The notes under the pieces: generated by a model
The model's input: the letters and a program-made list of their open reading frames with translations, nothing else
Database searches by the model: none
What the model was told of the DNA's origin: nothing
In this document: piece after piece, positions 9,967 through 18,046 of the stretch
Layout: every line of letters starts with the position of its first letter
Position numbering within the stretch: position 1 is the first letter of the stretch
Position numbers and translations under genes: made by a program
DNA from: a virus
Length of the DNA stretch: 22,551 nucleotides
IMG/VR virus record: IMGVR_UViG_3300043570_000086
Coordinates: 1 to 22,551 of that record
Reading direction: 5' to 3' (one strand)

Positions 9967-10598
9967 CGAAAATTCCCATTGCTTCCGTCTTCAAAGCCAC
10001 CGCCGCCACCACCACCGTAGCCATAGCTACCAGCTTCAGCCATACCGTTTGCTGCTGCTATAGATGTTTCCGCGCTTAGATCGCCAGCGTCAAAGATGTT
10101 CTGAATAAGATAAGTTTTGTTTTGTGCGCCAGCGATACTTGTCAAATAGTTTTCGATTGTGAGTGTTACCGTCTGACTTTCCGCACTACCAGAAATACCT
10201 ACCTCGTTCATGTAACCAGTGTAATAGGCTACAACAGAACCAACTTGGCTTTCATTCTGATCAACGCAATAAAACCAAAGTCTTGCAATGCGCCCCTGCC
10301 ACTTTGACTTGTCGCCAATAATAGCCAAAAAGTCAGCATTGTTTACTAAAAGTCCGCTCATTGATATTGCCACGGTATCAGAGCCTGTTTCATTATGTTT
10401 AACAGGAGATACATTTATTAGATTGTGATCAAAACTTTCGTAAGTTCCATCCAATTCTGAATCACCTGATCCAGAGATTGTCTTATCATAAAGACCGCTT
10501 GTGCCTCGCAGTACATCGCCAACAAAGTCAGCGTAGATTAGAACGCGCCAGTTAACGACTGTGGCTTCAAGTGCCGCCTGTGTTGTTGCATCAACCAT
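9963..10598 (-). CDS. Tail-tip/baseplate hub protein in the lambda L position
   Basis: This 211-aa, mostly beta protein begins with 'VVNWRVLIYADFVGDVLRGT' and runs through 'SPVKHNETGSDTVAISMSGL' to 'GRIARLWFYCVDQNES', 'VVAYYTGYMNEVGISGS' and 'QTVTLTIENYL'. The motif G-R-x-A-R-x-W followed by Y-x-G-Y-M and T-V-T-L-x-x-E-N is typical of hub-like proteins between the distal tail protein and the NlpC/P60 protein in siphophages and gene transfer agents (compare DUF2163-type proteins). The C-terminus is a flexible Gly-rich tail (GYGGGGGGGFEDG). It starts in a TAATG overlap with the preceding gene. The hub role rests on position and general fold, since no catalytic residues are evident. Confidence 0.65.
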   Translation of the reverse strand: MVDATTQAALEATVVNWRVLIYADFVGDVLRGTSGLYDKTISGSGDSELDGTYESFDHNLINVSPVKHNETGSDTVAISMSGLLVNNADFLAIIGDKSKWQGRIARLWFYCVDQNESQVGSVVAYYTGYMNEVGISGSAESQTVTLTIENYLTSIAGAQNKTYLIQNIFDAGDLSAETSIAAANGMAEAGSYGYGGGGGGGFEDGSNGNFR

Positions 10599-11188
10599 TA
10601 GAAGGACTCCCGTAGGTTCAGTGAAAGGCTATATACATAACCGTTCTCAACTGAAAGCGTTGGCTCCTCTACAAAGTACATTAGGCAATATGGGTTCTTG
10701 TATTCAATCGCTGCGTTGTCAGATGACGCTGTGCGAATGGGTGGCTCAAAAGTCAGGGTGGCAACGCCCGATCCGTTTGACGTTACATTCTCAGTCAACT
10801 GCAAAAGCTGGTTGTTAATGGTGACATACTGACCCGCGACAAGCACCGTTGTTGATACGGGCCATCCGTCAGTAGCTAATGTGCGACCAGTTTGCCCAGC
10901 CCCATTGACTAACGGAGTGGCTGTAGATGCAGACTGCGCAATTGGATCAACTGGTATCTGAAAGTCGTTAGCACGGCCACGGCTCTTGGCTATGAACGAG
11001 CGCCATGCGTTAACATTTGTCGTTCCCACAATTGGCGGCAAAGCAATTTGGCATTCCCACCATCCACGCCCAGATGCAATGGTCTGCCTACGGCCCGTCC
11101 AATCAGATACGTTGGTCTGCGCTGGCATAAGCAGCCGCCACGACATGCCCTGCGGCTTTGGTGTCGAAGGATATGTGATTGTCGCCAT
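10598..11188 (-). CDS. Distal tail / minor tail protein in the lambda M position
   Basis: This 196-aa protein follows the tape measure in a TAATG overlap. The N-terminal third ('MSWRLLMPAQTNVSDWTGRR', 'GWWECQIALPPI', 'AWRSFIAKSRGRANDFQIPV') resembles the distal-tail fold, in which a strand carrying the tail-tube sequence is compared with a sheet. The middle has 'GWPVSTTVLVAGQYVTI', then 'LLQLTENVTSNGSGVATLTF' and 'EPPIR', a phrase widely found in phage tail-tip proteins with an inserted OB- or SH3-like domain. The end returns to beta strands ('SLSLNLRESF'). It probably forms the ring joining the tail tube to the tip hub. The family is recognised, but exact equivalence to lambda gpM is inferred from gene order. 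Confidence 0.68.
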   Translation of the reverse strand: MATITYPSTPKPQGMSWRLLMPAQTNVSDWTGRRQTIASGRGWWECQIALPPIVGTTNVNAWRSFIAKSRGRANDFQIPVDPIAQSASTATPLVNGAGQTGRTLATDGWPVSTTVLVAGQYVTINNQLLQLTENVTSNGSGVATLTFEPPIRTASSDNAAIEYKNPYCLMYFVEEPTLSVENGYVYSLSLNLRESF

Positions 11189-13155
11189 TACTGCATTGCT
11201 CCACCGAGGCGTGGCCTACGAAGATTTGAGATTGTGCGTGACTCTGCTGCTGCGATAATTGCCGGAGCAGTCTCAAGGATGCCTTGCATTACCTGAGCGC
11301 GAACAGCGGCTGGATCATTTGAGCCACGGGCGTCTACGCTGATGTTAAAGCTGCTTCCACCGCCGTTACCGCCGCGCATGTTGCCGTTAGGAATAATTGT
11401 GCCGTTGCCACCTGGAACAAATAGTTCTGGGCCGCGTTCGCCAACCATGTATGGCTTGTTGCTGTCTACTGAACCGCCATAAGCCCTTACTCCGGCAAGG
11501 TTTACGCTAGAGCCAAAGCCACCAGTTGGACCACCCGCTGCGCCACCTAAAGCGCCACTTACAATACCCACAATCTGCTGCACAATAAATAACCGAAACA
11601 GTTCGTCAATGACTGCGCTAATAATACCCTTCATTGCAGTTTTAAATGACATTGCCCCAGTAAGCATACCCTTAAATGAGTTTGCTACGGAATTTCCTAT
11701 AGAATCAAAAGACTTCTTCATTTCATCCGCACGAGCTATTATGTCATCCATTTCTTTGCTGACAGGAAGGTCTTTAAAATCAGGCAAAGCGTCTTTGGCC
11801 ATGCGGTCAGCGTCTTTAAGACTTTCTTTAAGCGCATCATTATAATGCGCCATCTCAATAGATTCGACAGCAGTCTTGAATGGCTCAATAGTTGCGCTTT
11901 GTCCGGCTTTAGACAAATCCATAAAAGATTTTTCTAGTTCAGCAATCTGCCGTTGGTAAGCAGGAATTTCCTTCATCCCAACCTTGCCAATCTTTTCCAT
12001 AAAGGACTCGATTGACTTCAACTCTCTTTCTTGCTCTTTTTCAGCTTCAGTTTTACCAGTGCGCTTCTTGCCGCGAACCTTTTTCATGGAATCCAGCAAT
12101 TTGTTATAGGATGAAGTTTCAGCGTCTACAGCAGACCTAAACTTATCTTGAGATATCTTTCCATTCGCATAGGCATTGCGCAAATTGTTTATAGCTTGCT
12201 CATGCTTTTCAGTTGCCATAGCCGAAGCACCCATTGCAGCCGATAGGGTGTAGGATTCGGCTTGAGATTTTCTTGTAGCTATCTGGAAACCTTCTAGGCG
12301 CTTTTCCAACACGCCCAAAGCGGTTTCAGCTTTTTTAGTGTTAGCAAGTTGTCTTGCTGTATTTTGATTGTCTTGCCCAATGTTCGCAAACGCCTCAGAC
12401 CCAGAAAGAGCGTCTTGATATTTTGTGTTTGCTTCGCCAATGGCGATAATTCCATTCAGCTTTGTCCTGGCTAATGCAGCTTCAATCCGCGCAAGTTGCA
12501 ATGCAGCCTGAGCCTGATCTGCGTAACGAGCAGTTAAAATAGCACTTGCATTTGCTGCTTGTATAGCAGTCTGGGCAATATCACGATTGTTTTTAGCCAA
12601 CAATTCATCAATTGCCACCAAATCCTTAACGGATGCAGTCTGCAAATGGTAGCTATCAGTTAGGCTGTCTATAGAGGATTTAGTCTTGTCGCTTTCTTCA
12701 CCCGTTAAAATAAACTTTTCAACAAGGTATCCCAAGACCATTGAAGCGCCAATAATTAAAACACTCCAAGGGCCAGCAAGAAAATTACCAATAGCCCCAG
12801 CCTTGCCGCCCATTTGCTGCATGGCAATACCGACTTGACCAATTTGCTGGTTAAATGCTTGTACTGGACTCGCGCCAGTTGAAACACTGGTTGCAAAATC
12901 GTTGATTTGCATACCAAGTTGCTGAGTGCCTTGACGGGTTTGACGCAACGCTTTGGATTGCGCATCAAGAGCATTATTATATCGAACGCCATTACTAATC
13001 ACGGCATTAGTTGATGAAGCAAGGCCAGCATTAGCGGATTTCAACTGCTCAGTTTCTTTGCGCAGTGAATCAACGGAAGATATTAATTTCTGAAGCTGCT
13101 CCTGCCCAGAGACTTGAGCAGCAAATAGAAACTCAACTCTTTGGTCTTGGGCCAC
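11188..13155 (-). CDS. Tail length tape measure protein, lambda gpH-like
   Basis: This 655-aa protein has an N-terminal coiled coil ('LQKLISSVDSLRKETEQLKS'), a hydrophobic segment at about residues 118-147 ('PWSVLIIGASMVLGYLVEKF'), long helical Ala/Lys/Glu-rich middle parts, a second apolar segment near 525-550 ('LFRLFIVQQIVGIVSGALGG') and a C-terminal domain like the lambda tape-measure end ('GERGPELFVPGGNGTIIPNG', 'SFNISVDARGSNDPAAVRAQ'). It sets tail length and later passes into the cell membrane on infection. At about 0.15 nm per residue it predicts a tail near 100 nm if not trimmed. The start is GTG at 13155, with AGAAAGG upstream, and it overlaps the end of the frameshifted chaperone by 23 nt, as in other G/GT-H junctions. 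Confidence 0.9.
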   Translation of the reverse strand: MAQDQRVEFLFAAQVSGQEQLQKLISSVDSLRKETEQLKSANAGLASSTNAVISNGVRYNNALDAQSKALRQTRQGTQQLGMQINDFATSVSTGASPVQAFNQQIGQVGIAMQQMGGKAGAIGNFLAGPWSVLIIGASMVLGYLVEKFILTGEESDKTKSSIDSLTDSYHLQTASVKDLVAIDELLAKNNRDIAQTAIQAANASAILTARYADQAQAALQLARIEAALARTKLNGIIAIGEANTKYQDALSGSEAFANIGQDNQNTARQLANTKKAETALGVLEKRLEGFQIATRKSQAESYTLSAAMGASAMATEKHEQAINNLRNAYANGKISQDKFRSAVDAETSSYNKLLDSMKKVRGKKRTGKTEAEKEQERELKSIESFMEKIGKVGMKEIPAYQRQIAELEKSFMDLSKAGQSATIEPFKTAVESIEMAHYNDALKESLKDADRMAKDALPDFKDLPVSKEMDDIIARADEMKKSFDSIGNSVANSFKGMLTGAMSFKTAMKGIISAVIDELFRLFIVQQIVGIVSGALGGAAGGPTGGFGSSVNLAGVRAYGGSVDSNKPYMVGERGPELFVPGGNGTIIPNGNMRGGNGGGSSFNISVDARGSNDPAAVRAQVMQGILETAPAIIAAAESRTISNLRRPRLGGAMQ

Positions 13156-13632
13156 GCTTTTGCCTTTCTTCGCTCAGGTTAAAATAAGCGACCCATTCGT
13201 TATACTCTTCAATTGAAATAAGTTCAATCTCTGCAATGGTTTTGCCAAGTCGATCCGCCAAGGTGAGTAAATTATACCTAAACGGATCGCCTCTTAGTTT
13301 TTTTCCTGCTCCTCGACACTGTCCCCGCTCATAAATGCGGCAGCAACAGTTGAAATCACAGATACCTCTTCGCGCATAAGAACGGCCTTGTCCTCAAGCG
13401 TAAACAGTTTTTCACCCTGACCATTTTCAGCCTTAAGAACAATAAGGTCAACCATTGCATCAAAAGATGCCGAACCCAAAAAGTTAGGGTGCTTACGCTG
13501 GATACGGTTTAATTCACCAGCAAGCAGAGGGCCATAATAGACCTTCTCTGGCTTGCCCTCATCACCCCACTGTGGAACTTCTATGTGACGCTTATTCGAT
13601 GTCCGCTCTGCGATACGCTTGGCAATACTCAT
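13133..13632 (-). CDS. Tail assembly chaperone, long GT-like form made by -1 frameshifting
   Basis: Reading of the G-like gene shifts back by 1 nt at the heptamer A-AAA-AAC (13297-13303), just before its TAA stop, and continues for 54 codons to a TGA at 13133-13135. The product would be 166 aa. The added part begins LRGDPFRYNLLTLADRLGKT and contains 'IELISIEEYNEWVAYFNL', which has the classic look of the T domain of siphophage chaperones (L-A-x-x-L-G-x-T-[IV]-x-E-[IL] ... EEYxEWxAYF). That recognisable domain has no start codon or ribosome site of its own, so frameshifting is the natural route. In lambda, gpG coats the tape measure and gpGT recruits tube subunits, and neither stays in the tail. 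Position directly before the tape measure fits exactly. Confidence 0.85.
13294..13632 (-). CDS. Tail assembly chaperone, short G-like form
   Basis: This 112-aa protein begins MSIAKRIAERTSNKRHIEVP, with 'WGDEGKPEKVYYGPLLAGEL' and a helical C-terminal half ('TLEDKAVLMREEVSVISTVA') ending in an acidic tail (DSVEEQEKN). Its size, charge and place between the tube genes and the tape measure match the short chaperone of lambda-like and HK97-like tails, which binds the tape measure during assembly. The ATG at 13632 has an AAGGAAG element about 8 nt upstream, 15 nt after the stop of the second tube gene. The last codons (GAA AAA AAC TAA) form a slippery site, so part of the product should be extended into the GT-like form. 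Confidence 0.85.
   Translation of the reverse strand: MSIAKRIAERTSNKRHIEVPQWGDEGKPEKVYYGPLLAGELNRIQRKHPNFLGSASFDAMVDLIVLKAENGQGEKLFTLEDKAVLMREEVSVISTVAAAFMSGDSVEEQEKN
13297..13303 (-). promoter_or_regulatory. -1 ribosomal frameshift site (A AAA AAC)
   Basis: The heptamer A-AAA-AAC is in the phase required for X-XXY-YYZ slippage (zero-frame codons AAA AAC) and sits immediately before the TAA stop of the short chaperone. A slip back by one leads into a 54-codon extension with a conserved T-like domain. The 20 nt just after the heptamer (13278-13297) can form an imperfect hairpin (8 positions per arm, one mismatch, CGAT loop). It starts without the usual 5-9 nt spacer, so its stimulatory role is uncertain. 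Confidence 0.82.
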
Positions 13633-13647
13633 ATTAATCTTCCTTAA

Positions 13648-14040
13648 TTATACAGCCGCGCTAGTCAAAGCCCCTGTTCCTTGAACAGTGATAGTGGATT
13701 CCACCATACCATCGAAGCTGCCAGTGATAGTCTTACCAGTTACAATGGCTTGACCCGTGTAATAAATGTCGGTCGAAACTGCGCCCTCTGGGTAAAAGCG
13801 GATAGCTACTTCAGCGCCAGGGATCAATGCTCCTTGACCTGTGGTATCAGTTTCGTCCCAAAACACATCAACCGAACCAGACCAACCCTTTAAGGTAGTC
13901 TTAAACGTGCGATAGCTATCGCTCATTGAGGTATCTTCAACAGTATCGGCAGTTTCCTCAAGCGAGTACGAACGAATTTCAAGCACGTTGTTGGTCGATC
14001 CAACGCGAACTGTGCCTTCTGAACCAGTATGGGTAGCCAT
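13648..14040 (-). CDS. Tail tube protein, second paralogue
   Basis: This 130-aa protein begins MATHTGSEGTVRVGSTNNVL and contains 'EIRSYSLEETADTVEDTSM', 'FKTTLKGWSGSVDVFWDETD' and 'AIVTGKTITGSFDGMVESTI'. It matches the neighbouring gene at roughly three quarters of its positions by eye, so the two are tandem paralogues. The strand pattern, with W-x-G-S-V-x-x-x-W-D and a final T-x-Q-G-T-G-x-L-T, is that of siphophage major tail proteins of the lambda gpV/TP901 type, which stack as hexameric rings into the tail tube. The ATG lies behind TAAGGA, where the TAA ends the upstream copy, giving very tight spacing. Both copies keep the whole domain, so neither looks like a remnant. Confidence 0.85.
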   Translation of the reverse strand: MATHTGSEGTVRVGSTNNVLEIRSYSLEETADTVEDTSMSDSYRTFKTTLKGWSGSVDVFWDETDTTGQGALIPGAEVAIRFYPEGAVSTDIYYTGQAIVTGKTITGSFDGMVESTITVQGTGALTSAAV

Positions 14041-14049
14041 GTCTTATCC

Positions 14050-14448
14050 TTACGCCAGTGTTGCTTCAGTCAAAGCACCAGTGCCTTGAAGCGTGATTGT
14101 TGATTCCACCATACCGTCAAAGCTGCCAGTGATCGTCTTGCCTGTCACAATTGCCGTTCCGGTGTAGTACTTTTCAGATACGCCAGCCGACGCACCTTCT
14201 GGAAATACGTTAATTGTCGCTTCAGCGCCGACCACAAGGCCACCTTGGCCCAAGGTGTCAGTCTCATCCCAGAATACATCAACGGAGCCTGACCAGCCCT
14301 TTAGAGTCGTTTTGAAGCTGCGATAGCTATCACCCATCGAAGTGTCTTCGACGGTATCAGCGGTTTCTTCCAAAGAGTAGGAGCGAATCTCTGCGATGGT
14401 GTTCGCACCAACCTTGAGCGTTCCTTCACTGCCAGTATGCGTAGCCAT
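14050..14448 (-). CDS. Tail tube protein, first paralogue
   Basis: This 132-aa protein is the upstream member of a tandem pair and starts in a TAATG overlap with the 48-aa gene. Its N-terminus (MATHTGSEGTLKVGANTIAE), the central 'TTLKGWSGSVDVFWDETDTL' and the C-terminal 'TGKTITGSFDGMVESTITLQ' are shared almost unchanged with the downstream copy. Differences cluster in a loop around residues 70-95 ('GGLVVGAEATINVFPEGASA'), probably exposed on the tube. The fold and position are those of the major tail (tube) protein. It is open whether both copies enter one mixed tube or one is the main subunit. Nothing in ribosome-site strength clearly favours either. Confidence 0.85.
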   Translation of the reverse strand: MATHTGSEGTLKVGANTIAEIRSYSLEETADTVEDTSMGDSYRSFKTTLKGWSGSVDVFWDETDTLGQGGLVVGAEATINVFPEGASAGVSEKYYTGTAIVTGKTITGSFDGMVESTITLQGTGALTEATLA

Positions 14449-14594
14449 TACTCAGACTCCTCGACTTTCTCTGCTTGAACCTTTGGCTTTGCAGCCTTCT
14501 TTACATCCCAGCCCTTAGACTGATAGTGTGCCAGATCAACCTCACAGGCAAGTATTTCATCACCAGCTTTGTTGTAAACTTTGACCATCTTCAT
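14448..14594 (-). CDS. 48-aa protein between tail terminator and tail tube genes
   Basis: This short gene links its neighbours by an ATGA overlap upstream and a TAATG overlap downstream, strong evidence that it is real. The protein reads MKMVKVYNKAGDEILACEVD, then 'LAHYQSKGWDVKKAAKPK' and a charged end (VQAEKVEESE). The pattern V-x-V-Y-N-K-x-G, then A-H-Y-x-x-K-G-W followed by a Lys/Ala/Pro-rich tail recurs in small phage proteins that precede tail tube genes. The K-G-W turn resembles the small helical folds of Rho-N-like or FluMu-type proteins. I cannot assign a function. A helper of tube or terminator assembly is a guess from position. Confidence 0.8.
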   Translation of the reverse strand: MKMVKVYNKAGDEILACEVDLAHYQSKGWDVKKAAKPKVQAEKVEESE

Positions 14595-15034
14595 CTTGGT
14601 GTCTCCACATCAGCTATGGATGTAACATATTCAGCAACGTAAGACAACCGAGCAGAAGCCGTTGGCTTTTCGCCTTCGACGTTAATGTCTACGTCTGTTT
14701 CAGTCAAAACGCAACTCTTAACTAATCCGTTGAGTGAGAAATCAGAGCCAATGGCATCCTCAATCAAAACACAGGCATCGTCGATTTCATTTACTATCGT
14801 TGCGCTAGAACCCTTGATGTGAATATCCACCGTCAGATTCAACGAACCACGAAGCGTCCTGAAGCCTATACTGACAAGCGAAGATGATTGACTGTTGGTG
14901 TAAACTACAGCCGCTGGCAGCTTTGCCTCATCCAAGGCATAGGAGCGCATCTTGTAAACGCTGCCAGAAAAGAAAGGCAAAGCACCAATGATGGTAGCCA
15001 CCCGATCCCTGATCTGTTGGTTCATATGCGCCAT
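14591..15034 (-). CDS. Tail terminator / minor tail protein, second paralogue
   Basis: This 147-aa protein begins MAHMNQQIRDRVATIIGALP. It contains 'VYKMRSYALDEAKLPAAVVY', 'IHIKGSSATIVNEIDD' and 'DFSLNGLVKSCVLTETDVDI', each with a direct counterpart in the preceding gene. Proteins of this size, with an opening helix, a 'LP-x-x-V-Y' strand and a V-D-I-x-x-K-G motif, placed between head-tail joining and tail tube genes are typical of lambda gpU/gpZ-like terminators, which cap the finished tail and join it to the head. The ATG overlaps the stop of the upstream paralogue as TAATG. It lacks the ~24-residue insertion of its paralogue. The terminator call comes from position and strand pattern. Confidence 0.7.
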   Translation of the reverse strand: MAHMNQQIRDRVATIIGALPFFSGSVYKMRSYALDEAKLPAAVVYTNSQSSSLVSIGFRTLRGSLNLTVDIHIKGSSATIVNEIDDACVLIEDAIGSDFSLNGLVKSCVLTETDVDINVEGEKPTASARLSYVAEYVTSIADVETPR

Positions 15035-15549
15035 TAGATCGACACCTGAGAATTATTTATGGCGGTTGTATACTGGACGTTGAATATCATCTTGCCGGAA
15101 CCGATAGCCTTTTCGCCGCCAGTTTCAACGTCAAAGTCTGAACTTGCCAGAACACAGCTTTTTGCCAATCCGCCTAAATCAAAATCATCCTCAACAGCGT
15201 GTATAAGTTCCGCTGAAAACTGCTCAATGTTCTCAAATATGCTAACACTTGATCCCTTGTTTATGATGTCCACCCTCAATTCAAGATCGTGTGTCATCGT
15301 CCGCTGGCCTATGGTTGCAAGCCGAGATAAATCAGTAGTGGTGTAAACAATCAGAGCGGGTAGTTTATCTTCATCGAGCGCATAACGACGAAATTTGTAC
15401 AATGTTCCTGTAGAAAGCAAATCCCCAGACCCTCTGGCTGCAAGATTATTGCTAAAACGATCTTGGATTACAATACCAAACCTGTCGTAAATAAAATTTA
15501 CAAGCAGAGTGGCAACATAATCTCTGATCTGCTGCCGAACGTGCGCCAT
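15034..15549 (-). CDS. Tail terminator / minor tail protein, first paralogue
   Basis: I place the start at the ATG at 15549 (MAHVRQQIRDYVATLLVNFI), not at an in-frame ATG 11 codons earlier, because it has AAAGG about 7 nt upstream, follows the preceding stop by 1 nt, and aligns exactly with the MAH start of the downstream copy. The 171-aa protein shares 'LYKFRRYALDEDKLPALIVY', 'VDIINKGSSVSIFENIEQ' and 'DFDLGGLAKSCVLASSDFDV' with that copy, and has an extra segment of about 24 residues near 20-45 ('YDRFGIVIQDRFSNNLAARG'). One of the pair may correspond to lambda gpU and the other to gpZ, or one may be a completion protein. The sequence alone does not decide. Confidence 0.7.
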   Translation of the reverse strand: MAHVRQQIRDYVATLLVNFIYDRFGIVIQDRFSNNLAARGSGDLLSTGTLYKFRRYALDEDKLPALIVYTTTDLSRLATIGQRTMTHDLELRVDIINKGSSVSIFENIEQFSAELIHAVEDDFDLGGLAKSCVLASSDFDVETGGEKAIGSGKMIFNVQYTTAINNSQVSI

Positions 15550-15550
15550 G

Positions 15551-15862
15551 TTACACCTTTTCGAGTATAAGCGTCGATACACCAGTTCCGTCTGTCAGTA
15601 CAACGCGCACGTTGTAAGCCACAGACCTAATGATAATTTCATCGCCATCAGCAGCCGAAGCTACATCAGCAGTGCGGCAGACAAACTGTGGTGATGGAAT
15701 TGTGATGTCCATCAAGTCTGTTGCGCCACGGCTGGCCTGTGGAGCATCAAAGATACCGTTCACAGAAACAGCACTGCCACCTACTGGTGTGTAAGTGGCA
15801 GTATCTGCAAAATCGTCGAGTTCGAAGAAATCGAGAATATCAGCGGCAGACTCAACGCCCAT
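15551..15862 (-). CDS. Head-tail joining protein, lambda gpFII-like
   Basis: This 103-aa protein begins MGVESAADILDFFELDDFAD and continues with 'ATYTPVGGSAVSVNGIFDAP', 'ITIPSPQFVCRTADV', 'GDEIIIRSVAYNVRVV' and a last strand 'LTDGTGVSTLILEK'. The order (short helical start, 'A-x-Y-x-x-x-G-x-x-V-x-G-I-F', then 'G-D-x-I-x-I-x-x-x-x-Y-x-V') is that of the phage attachment/FII family that attaches to gpW and forms the binding site for the tail. It overlaps the upstream gene by 11 nt. Position between the head genes and the tail terminators agrees. Residue-level identity to lambda is low, so the call rests on pattern and order. Confidence 0.78.
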   Translation of the reverse strand: MGVESAADILDFFELDDFADTATYTPVGGSAVSVNGIFDAPQASRGATDLMDITIPSPQFVCRTADVASAADGDEIIIRSVAYNVRVVLTDGTGVSTLILEKV

Positions 15863-16115: not shown

Positions 16116-17348
16116 TTATACCGTGTCGTTGTTGTATGCGAACGAAACTGCGTGACGTACTGCAACGTCAACAGTCTGAAGCGCAACAATGCGGACGGTT
16201 CCACTTGTCGATGCAGTGTATGGATCAACCGTCAGGTCAAGTCCACCCCACATGCCGATCAAGCAGTCAGCGAAGTTACCGAAGTAAACGTTACCAGCAG
16301 TTGACTGCTGAGTGCGGATTACGTTGTAACCGTTAGCTTGACCGTTTTCGAGAACGAACATGCCTGAACCAGTGTCCTTGCTCTTCGTCTTCAGACCGCC
16401 GTAAGTGGCTGCGTCCGTGATGTAGGCCAAGTTGCCGAACAGAGCGTTGTCTTCTGCAACAGCAGTTTCCATCGCAACCATTTCAGCAAAGGTTGGTACA
16501 GCAGCAGCAAACGCGGTTGGCTTGTTAACACCGGAGGTGTTCAAGATACCTGTTGGCTGACCGGACGATCCCGAACCTTCCAATGCGCCCTTGTCGATTG
16601 CCAAGGCCAGAGCCTGTGTCAAATCGTCACGGACCAACTGCTCAATGGCAGGAGTCGATTGAAGGATCAACTGACGGGTCATGTCGGTGAATGCACCAAT
16701 GTTCTTTGGAGCTAGCGAGACAGTACCAAAGGTTGGTTCCGACTCAGATGCAGCGCCGCCTTCTGTGCTGATCCAGCCAGAAGAAGAAGCAGCAGTCTTT
16801 TTAGGGATTGCTACGTTGCCTTGCAGACCTGGGAGCATACGCGCACCAGCTTGCATTACCGACGATGCGTTACGCAGAACGTCAATGAACTCGTTTGCAA
16901 GCAGATTCGTTGCAACGATTTCGTTGTCATCGCTGGTGTTCAGGTCACGCTTCCAGACGCCGAGAATGTCGGTTGGGAGCATAACGCCCTGTGCGCCACG
17001 GCCATAACGCTGTGCAGCAGCTTCCGAGACTTCAAACTCGAATGCAGCGGCTTCGCGAAGGCGACGGTCACTTGGGTTAGCAAGGGCAGCAATTGCACGA
17101 ACAACCGAGAACTGACGGATTTCTTTTTTCGTCAGGCCAATGTTTTCGTTTGCAAGCGGCGTGTCCGAACCAATTACGTCAAGCAGTTCACCACGGAACT
17201 GTTCAATGCTCTTGCCCGAACGGAGGGCGGCGTCGCCAAGATCACGCTTGTTGTGACGAGCGGCGAGTTCGATGATTGCAGATGCGTTCTTGGCAGCAGC
17301 TTCAGCAGCTTCAGCCCGAACCGCATCCATATTTACTTCGTCAGTCAT
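16116..17348 (-). CDS. Major capsid protein made from an internal start (nested, in frame)
   Basis: Inside the fused gene, the ATG at 17348 (MTDEVNMDAVRAEAAEAAAK) is preceded by AAGGAAG, with AGGA 7 nt from the start, as good a ribosome site as those of neighbouring genes and exactly at the protease-capsid boundary. Translation here would give a 410-aa scaffold-plus-capsid protein without protease. Capsid needs hundreds of copies and protease few, so a nested start would give the right ratio, as lambda Nu3 is nested in C. The N-terminal ~85 residues are Ala/Glu-rich and helical like the HK97 delta domain, and 'GLTKKEIRQFSVVRAI' begins the next section. The start is inferred from the ribosome site, and no product has been seen. 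Confidence 0.7.
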   Translation of the reverse strand: MTDEVNMDAVRAEAAEAAAKNASAIIELAARHNKRDLGDAALRSGKSIEQFRGELLDVIGSDTPLANENIGLTKKEIRQFSVVRAIAALANPSDRRLREAAAFEFEVSEAAAQRYGRGAQGVMLPTDILGVWKRDLNTSDDNEIVATNLLANEFIDVLRNASSVMQAGARMLPGLQGNVAIPKKTAASSSGWISTEGGAASESEPTFGTVSLAPKNIGAFTDMTRQLILQSTPAIEQLVRDDLTQALALAIDKGALEGSGSSGQPTGILNTSGVNKPTAFAAAVPTFAEMVAMETAVAEDNALFGNLAYITDAATYGGLKTKSKDTGSGMFVLENGQANGYNVIRTQQSTAGNVYFGNFADCLIGMWGGLDLTVDPYTASTSGTVRIVALQTVDVAVRHAVSFAYNNDTV

Positions 17349-17993
17349 TTTGACTTCCTTTTTGATAGATGGTTCAACTTTAGGTTGGGGTTCAAGAGCA
17401 GCCGCGCTACGACCCACGCCAACTGACGGGTCAGCAGGAATAGAAACGACAGATACCTCAAGGGGCGACCAAGAGCGAACAAGGTACTCGTCCTTATTCG
17501 TCGTAGACCGCTCCATTTTGTTGACGCGATAGCCCACCGAAACATTCGACCGGATACCATCGACAACGTCCTGAAAAACTTCCTGAGCAAGTGCCGAGCG
17601 CCCGAACCTGACTTTGGCTCGAAGAACACGGTCCTCAGAGAGTTCCACGGATTCAATAACGCCAATCTGCTTCTCTGGATCATGGTCCAGAAGCAGTGGC
17701 GCACGGCCCGAAGCAACAAAGCCCATATCAATGGCTTGGCTTTCGTGGACCAGTATTTCACGACCAAACGAACGGTCAACCGCCAGTTCAGAAGATACGG
17801 CAATCTCAACAGTGCGCTTCTCTTCCGAGATCGCCTTTGGCTGCATGTGGATAGCGCGGTGAAGCACTTCTACTGGAGCCTTGCGCTCTTCCTCAGTCGC
17901 TTCTTCAACGATTTCAGCCTCTACGGCCTCAACCTCTACAGCAACTTCGACTTCTGCAACTTCAGCTTCTACAGGTTCATCAACTTCTGACAT
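16116..17993 (-). CDS. Prohead protease (S78) fused to HK97-fold major capsid protein
   Basis: I start at the ATG at 17993, with GGAG 6 nt upstream; a TTG four codons earlier overlaps that site. Residues 9-37 are a very acidic Glu/Val stretch. Residues about 42-200 are an HK97-type prohead protease: 'LLLDHDPEKQIGVIESVEL' supplies the catalytic His (H104), 'GIRSNVSVGYRV' the Ser (S152), and 'RSWSPLEVSVVSIPADPS' the conserved strand with E179. A short linker leads into residues 216-625, the capsid protein: a scaffold-like helical segment (to about 300), then 'GVMLPTDILGVWKRDL' and 'VAIPKKTAASSSGWISTEGG', 'APKNIGAFTDMTRQLILQST' and 'YFGNFADCLIGMWGGLDLTV', all HK97-fold hallmarks. The two are separate genes in HK97. 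Self-cleavage should free the capsid half, and an internal start can also make it. Confidence 0.9.
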   Translation of the reverse strand: MSEVDEPVEAEVAEVEVAVEVEAVEAEIVEEATEEERKAPVEVLHRAIHMQPKAISEEKRTVEIAVSSELAVDRSFGREILVHESQAIDMGFVASGRAPLLLDHDPEKQIGVIESVELSEDRVLRAKVRFGRSALAQEVFQDVVDGIRSNVSVGYRVNKMERSTTNKDEYLVRSWSPLEVSVVSIPADPSVGVGRSAAALEPQPKVEPSIKKEVKMTDEVNMDAVRAEAAEAAAKNASAIIELAARHNKRDLGDAALRSGKSIEQFRGELLDVIGSDTPLANENIGLTKKEIRQFSVVRAIAALANPSDRRLREAAAFEFEVSEAAAQRYGRGAQGVMLPTDILGVWKRDLNTSDDNEIVATNLLANEFIDVLRNASSVMQAGARMLPGLQGNVAIPKKTAASSSGWISTEGGAASESEPTFGTVSLAPKNIGAFTDMTRQLILQSTPAIEQLVRDDLTQALALAIDKGALEGSGSSGQPTGILNTSGVNKPTAFAAAVPTFAEMVAMETAVAEDNALFGNLAYITDAATYGGLKTKSKDTGSGMFVLENGQANGYNVIRTQQSTAGNVYFGNFADCLIGMWGGLDLTVDPYTASTSGTVRIVALQTVDVAVRHAVSFAYNNDTV

Positions 17994-18046
17994 AAATTGC
18001 TCCAAAAAGCGTTTCAGCGAAACAATAACACCAAATTACGCAACAA

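Follow-up and report, generated by a model that had tools for sequence, protein, structure and literature searches.

Tail tubes are classically described as rings of one protein. The window analyzed here, a 22,551-base virus record (IMGVR_UViG_3300043570_000086), carries two tail tube genes side by side, and this arrangement raises the question of what a phage does with the second one. A preliminary description of the locus had proposed an old duplication kept by selection, with either a mixed tube or a specialized ring near one end of the tail. Judging from sequence comparisons and predicted folds, we consider it probable, at about 60%, that the two proteins, tubeA and tubeB, co-assemble in one tail tube. 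The genes concerned are as follows.

15551..15862, minus strand: head closure / head-tail joining protein, upstream marker (PF05354, 1.7e-18; PHROG 82, 2.7e-20)
15034..15549, minus strand: termA, tail terminator paralog A, 171 aa (PHROG 4204, 4e-15)
14591..15034, minus strand: termB, tail terminator paralog B, 147 aa (PHROG 4204, 5.5e-18)
14448..14588, minus strand: 46-aa ORF between termB and tubeA, its TAA overlapping the tubeA ATG (TAATG)
14050..14448, minus strand: tubeA, tail tube protein paralog A, 132 aa (PHROG 1407, 1.2e-15)
13648..14040, minus strand: tubeB, tail tube protein paralog B, 130 aa (PHROG 1407, 1.6e-16)
13294..13632, minus strand: tail assembly chaperone, downstream marker (PHROG 344, 1.8e-5)
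11188..13155, minus strand: tape measure protein, 655 aa (PHROG 1538, 1.1e-17)
10598-11188, minus strand: distal tail protein

The tail gene block occupies the minus strand of the record, where transcription order runs from a capsid ORF through head closure, termA, termB and the 46-aa ORF to tubeA and tubeB, and then to the tail assembly chaperone, tape measure and distal tail protein. Both tube genes therefore lie between the head-completion/terminator genes and the chaperone/tape measure genes, as expected of tail tube genes. For termA, the start given is the ATG at which relatives begin; in the ORF list it starts at a GTG at 15582. The 46-aa ORF is present at the same place, between terminator and tubeA, in many relatives. 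The ORF at 16116-18005 (minus strand) apparently fuses a prohead protease-like N-terminal part, recognized by eye only, to a major capsid protein, and in phage CRP-406 the annotated major capsid protein gene is comparably long.

Both tube ORFs are complete, a gap of 9 nt separating the stop of tubeA from the start of tubeB, and both match the curated major tail protein family PHROG 1407, so that the initial identification of two complete tandem tail tube genes holds; their scores against Pfam PF06199 (18.0 bits for tubeA, 13.5 bits for tubeB) are below the cut-off of 23.8. An estimate by eye of about 100 identical residues in roughly 130 was close to the measured 102 of 129 aligned residues (79%), and the local alignment score of 516 compares with a maximum of 69 among 500 shuffles. 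The DNA does differ at many silent positions, as had been noticed: different codons are used at 57 of the 102 identical residues, third positions differ at 79 of 129, and the NG86 estimates are a saturated pS of 0.77 and a dN of 0.17. The differences had also been said to cluster around residues 70-95, where 13 of 24 aligned positions indeed differ; in the segment 66-98 the count is 15 of 31, versus 2 of 46 in 20-65 (hypergeometric p ~5e-5), and small extra clusters occur at 11-19 and 128-131. Rather than a fused double domain, the window has two tube ORFs that each start and stop independently, and the two genes are separate in all complete pairs, relatives included. Frameshift extension of the SPP1 type does not describe them either, both genes being full-length, with products that differ from residue 11 onward.

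Relatives were gathered from four IMG/VR scans with tube queries, four MAG loci and four named phages, giving 114 distinct tube-DNA sets after copies of the window locus (L081 and L082) had been excluded. Each query contributed no more than its 80 best loci, and the following frequencies are therefore not population estimates. Ninety-nine of the 114 sets lie between recognized neighbors with at least one terminator, and these divide into 55 with one terminator and one tube, 27 with two of each (window included), 16 with one terminator and two tubes, and a single set (L049) with two terminators and one tube. In one of the 16, L003, the contig ends within the second terminator. The other 15 sets are open or have no terminator recognized by these queries (RcCronus, L090). 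Seventeen named phage records match tubeA, each at a single place, and CRP-823, CRP-406, HTVC112P and RcCronus have one tube gene each; among the phages compared, none with two tube genes is a cultured one. Since the nearest named phages by tube and terminase are CRP-8xx roseophages (63% and 61% identity, respectively), we infer a Rhodobacterales-like aquatic host. Elsewhere in the block, the tape measure (window 11188-13155; loci L001-L080) often stands at 40-60% in pieces while its neighbors stand at 90% or more. Its median ORF length is 617 aa in two-tube loci (n=41) versus 573 aa (n=51; Mann-Whitney p 3e-5), a comparison with relatedness uncontrolled and some loci overlapping, on which we base no claim.

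For comparisons between the copies, identical protein pairs were counted once, which reduced 48 complete pairs to 40 distinct ones, and two unusual loci, L054 or L018, were excluded where stated. Columns were divided into core and variable after inspection of the alignment, and the core tests are accordingly not blind. A single clade of the protein tree (99/96) holds 41 of the 42 B rows, all except that of L054; A rows are less well resolved from single-copy rows in this tree of only 133 columns. The A-B difference at 4-fold sites of the core is 0.67 within genomes, against 0.68 at full saturation. Purifying selection is evident for each copy from median dN/dS values of 0.079 among A orthologs (170 pairs) and 0.088 among B orthologs (191 pairs). 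We also looked for a truncated second copy, and no complete tube ORF shorter than 120 aa occurs in the 114 distinct tube sets. Decay of one copy in relatives, which the preliminary description had named as the outcome that would speak against it, is rejected in this way for copies uncut by contig ends. The tube duplication is thus old, with synonymous sites saturated and A and B separate in the tree except in L054, and both copies are under selection, much as had been proposed. The tandem pair of L054 (4001-4797), with a longer first and a shorter second copy, falls outside the main A and B clades and may represent a separate duplication.

The most informative pattern concerns how the copies change together. 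Columns 30, 33, 36, 45, 51, 53, 55, 107 and 108 vary from one genome to another, yet the two copies in the same genome mostly agree: across the 40 pairs, A and B carry the same residue in all 40 at sites 45 and 107, in 39 at sites 33 and 51, in 36 at site 53 and in 35 at site 30. Core identity averages 0.943 within genomes versus 0.898 between them, a value that none of 10,000 re-pairings reaches. Synonymous codon differences amount to 0.574 within versus 0.560 between genomes, with 9502 of 10,000 re-pairings as low. Because these differences are no lower within genomes than between, synonymous codons in the core have not been homogenized. Re-pairing ignores relatedness, and we therefore placed the changes on a tree built from third codon positions. 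With all 40 genomes, 20 core changes fall on the same branch in both copies versus 8.1 expected; without L054 and L018 the count is 19 versus 5.9, with 17 of the 19 identical in both starting and resulting residue; and with three more divergent genomes removed it is 12 versus 3.4. None of 5000 simulations attained the observed number in any of these cases. Outside the core, same-branch changes number 17 versus 17.6 expected for all genomes and 7 versus 12.0 without L054 and L018.

Such a match could be structurally meaningless if occasional gene conversion simply kept the core of the two genes alike. High A-B identity is confined to two tract-like blocks, at about 20-65 and 99-125, as conversion would have it, and conversion at deep branches is possible because silent sites at that depth are saturated. 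In shallow clades, however, recent conversion is rejected as the source of the matched core. Besides the unhomogenized codons described above, the 4-fold difference in the clade of the window (W clade) is 0.81 between A and B versus 0.18 among A and 0.16 among B copies. Moreover, some matched changes between close genomes are made by different codons (for example, T to S at site 53 by TCG and TCA; I to L at site 79, outside the core, by TTA and CTT), alongside others made by the same codon (such as T to S at site 36, TCA in both). Taken as a whole, we regard conversion as an unlikely explanation. It is also true that matched change could arise from a shared third partner or from the host environment rather than from contact between A and B.

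One locus bears on how strictly the copies must correspond. L018 (4351-4987) has a recombination break near the end of tubeA, with tubeB and chaperone DNA of the W clade, and with tubeA and upstream genes of another clade (the N-clade of tubeA) whose core residues are mismatched with its tubeB. The contig (5 kb) is either chimeric or derived from a natural recombinant in which the mismatch is tolerated. Unless it is chimeric, this combination of an N-clade A and a W-clade B suggests that the A/B match is not strictly required.

Other sites behave in the opposite manner and always distinguish the copies. With L054 left out, eight columns (19, 80, 90-93, 131 and 132) have no residue common to A and B over 39 pairs, and an insertion after residue 15 is in B and absent from A throughout. 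Compared with 27 single-copy rows, tubeA retains A19 and N80 and has gained residues 90-91 (a 2-residue insertion) and E92, while tubeB retains the short hairpin and D92 and has gained an L19-type residue, R80 and its one-residue insertion. Because each has gained residues relative to the single-copy rows, derived features are present in both copies. This pattern bears on the idea that the second gene serves merely for dosage, or to vary a protein sensed by host defenses. The defense protein DSR2 recognizes the phage tail tube, according to PMC10981675, and segment 66-98 is the variable one. Nevertheless, dosage alone does not predict A/B differences that are fixed over 39 pairs, and we think it very improbable that dosage or evasion is the explanation.

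Where these two sets of sites fall can be judged from predicted structures. AlphaFold2 single-chain models have a mean pLDDT of 85.7 for tubeA and 81.6 for tubeB. The tubeA model consists of strands, an irregular segment at 35-44, a helix at 65-70, a strand at 76-82 and a hairpin loop at 83-92, which together give the beta sandwich, long loop and flanking helix of the tube-protein fold. The surface loop previously suggested for residues 70-95 is only partly right, as the variable region takes in the modeled helix and strand as well as the hairpin loop at 83-92. A structure search with the tubeA model alone as query found the tail tube protein (TTP) of roseophage vB_DshS-R4C (8gtb) as the best solved match (Z 9.8, rmsd 5.2, 121 aligned), and the same protein is the first match in a profile search (E 6.7e-13), with numbering that corresponds one-to-one over residues 16 to 49. 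As reported in PMC10276861, the R4C tube is built of 20 hexamers of one TTP, with inter-disc contacts through V33, W36, M38, F46, T48, V49 and K107, and with intra-disc salt bridges joining D67, E70 and E103 to R91 and K126. In the profile alignment, sites 33 and 36, both of the matched class, align with the inter-disc contact residues V33 and W36 listed there. By contrast, sites 69, 72, 95 and 129 align on or next to D67, E70, R91 and K126, where placement near 67-72 is uncertain (a 2-residue gap) and K126 is just past the alignment end. A and B agree at these four sites in only 28-50% of pairs, with site 106 intermediate at 62%. The R4C salt-bridge charges themselves are not conserved in tubeA or tubeB. 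That positions differing between A and B align with or next to intra-ring contact residues of R4C was overlooked in the preliminary description.

These observations suggest the following scheme. One old duplication of a tail tube gene would have been kept in both copies because their roles split. A common long inter-disc loop (~28-57) and docking hairpin (~107-108) would allow either protein to stack on a ring of the other, and a change to the stacking surface in one gene would then have to be made in both. If both do stack through this surface, its being common to A and B would account for the matched changes. Each copy would have its own helix-strand-hairpin flank (~66-98), adjoining positions that correspond to the within-disc subunit contact of R4C, such that A and B would share a stacking surface and differ at the ring flank and outer face. 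The mixed tube proposed earlier gains indirect support from the matched changes at stacking-loop sites. The most likely single arrangement would be alternating A/B rings (A3B3), a two-gene version of the T5 and P74-26 tubes, although we put this forward only tentatively; that rings are mixed rather than of a single kind is the least certain point of the explanation. A paralog-specific flank near the in-ring contact is compatible with A-B pairing as well as with self-sorting. Co-assembly could also take the form of one tube in which homo-hexameric rings, some all A and others all B, stack randomly or in blocks; lateral faces would then self-sort and the stacking surface alone would be shared. 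The matched loop sites and distinct flanks fit this arrangement equally well, single-copy relatives manage with one protein, and the present evidence separates neither kind of ring from the other; we view it as a somewhat doubtful sub-case.

The specialized ring of the preliminary description corresponds to a different proposal, in which one copy would form a special ring of ~6 subunits at one end of the tube, by the baseplate or by the terminator, and the other would build the tube. The phage T4 proteins gp48 and gp54 have tube-like folds. Rings of these two proteins form the hub for tube polymerization at the T4 baseplate, as described in PMC8718954, and offer a precedent. However, both genes lie within the tube locus, their products share 79% of residues and are equally constrained by the dN/dS values above, and they match at the stacking loop, whereas greater divergence would be expected of an end ring. 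An end ring is therefore an improbable role for either protein, and we favor co-assembly along the tube.

The tail terminator is doubled too, a feature that had gone unnoticed. TermA and termB are identical at 66 of 147 residues (45%), both match the tail terminator family PHROG 4204, and each forms one clade in the tree (100/100 and 100/99). In the relatives, the numbers of terminators and of tubes vary independently, and the two doublings are for this reason best read as separate events; a single event that doubled both is unsupported, as their trees also differ. The notion that each terminator serves its own tube is weakened by the 15 flanked sets (L003 aside) with two tubes and one terminator. 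A single terminator in L036 (540-1046) has a termA-like N-terminal insertion on a body of the single-copy type, and is possibly a chimera of terminator types. It is conceivable, though doubtful, that an A3B3 tube made from unfused paralogs represents an evolutionary stage preceding fused tubes with three-fold symmetry like those of T5 and P74-26, and that the doubled terminator, present in many of these phages, may follow a 3+3 arrangement.

The finding is larger than first stated, as the terminator was doubled independently of the tube. If co-assembly is correct, a two-gene tube with one-gene relatives would open the origin of fused pseudo-hexameric tubes to testing, and a phage would be able to diversify the flank of its tail while the stacking surface stays fixed. 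The duplication yields a testable structural prediction, namely a shared stacking surface with distinct flanks, and the map of A/B sites names the residues to inspect first in a structure.

Among the accessible portions of open-licence papers, we found no described case of a tandem tail-tube gene pair, and the known systems each differ from the window in some respect. The named phages CRP-823 and CRP-406 (Roseobacter), HTVC112P (Pelagibacter) and RcCronus (Rhodobacter) have a similar tail gene order, with tube identity from 63% to 37%; the first two have one annotated terminator-type gene, and the other two have none so annotated. The R4C TTP and the RcGTA tail tube (GTA entry 6tba, Z 8.0) share family and fold with the window proteins, and the long-loop methionine M38 aligns, but R4C is described as using one TTP where the window has two tube genes. 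SPP1 places two tube proteins, gp17.1 and gp17.1*, in one tail at ~3:1 (PMC6316719); there, a +1 frameshift in one gene adds a C-terminal domain, whereas the window has two genes. Two tube proteins per ring are described for the Bacteroides fragilis T6SS Hcp2-Hcp3 heterohexamer (9vne; PMC13323088), which is of the same fold class with only remote structural similarity (Z 7.4 to the tubeA model) and which, unlike a phage tail tube, belongs to a secretion system with effector loading. Finally, PMC5717097 and PMC10034513 describe a duplicated tube domain in T5 pb6 and in the P74-26 tube protein, with the domains fused in one polypeptide that forms trimeric, pseudo-hexameric rings. The window has two genes instead of one fused polypeptide, and domain identity is 16% in P74-26 versus 79% between tubeA and tubeB. 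By analogy with these phages, hetero-hexameric rings of tubeA and tubeB would be a plausible unfused counterpart of the fused T5 and P74-26 tubes.
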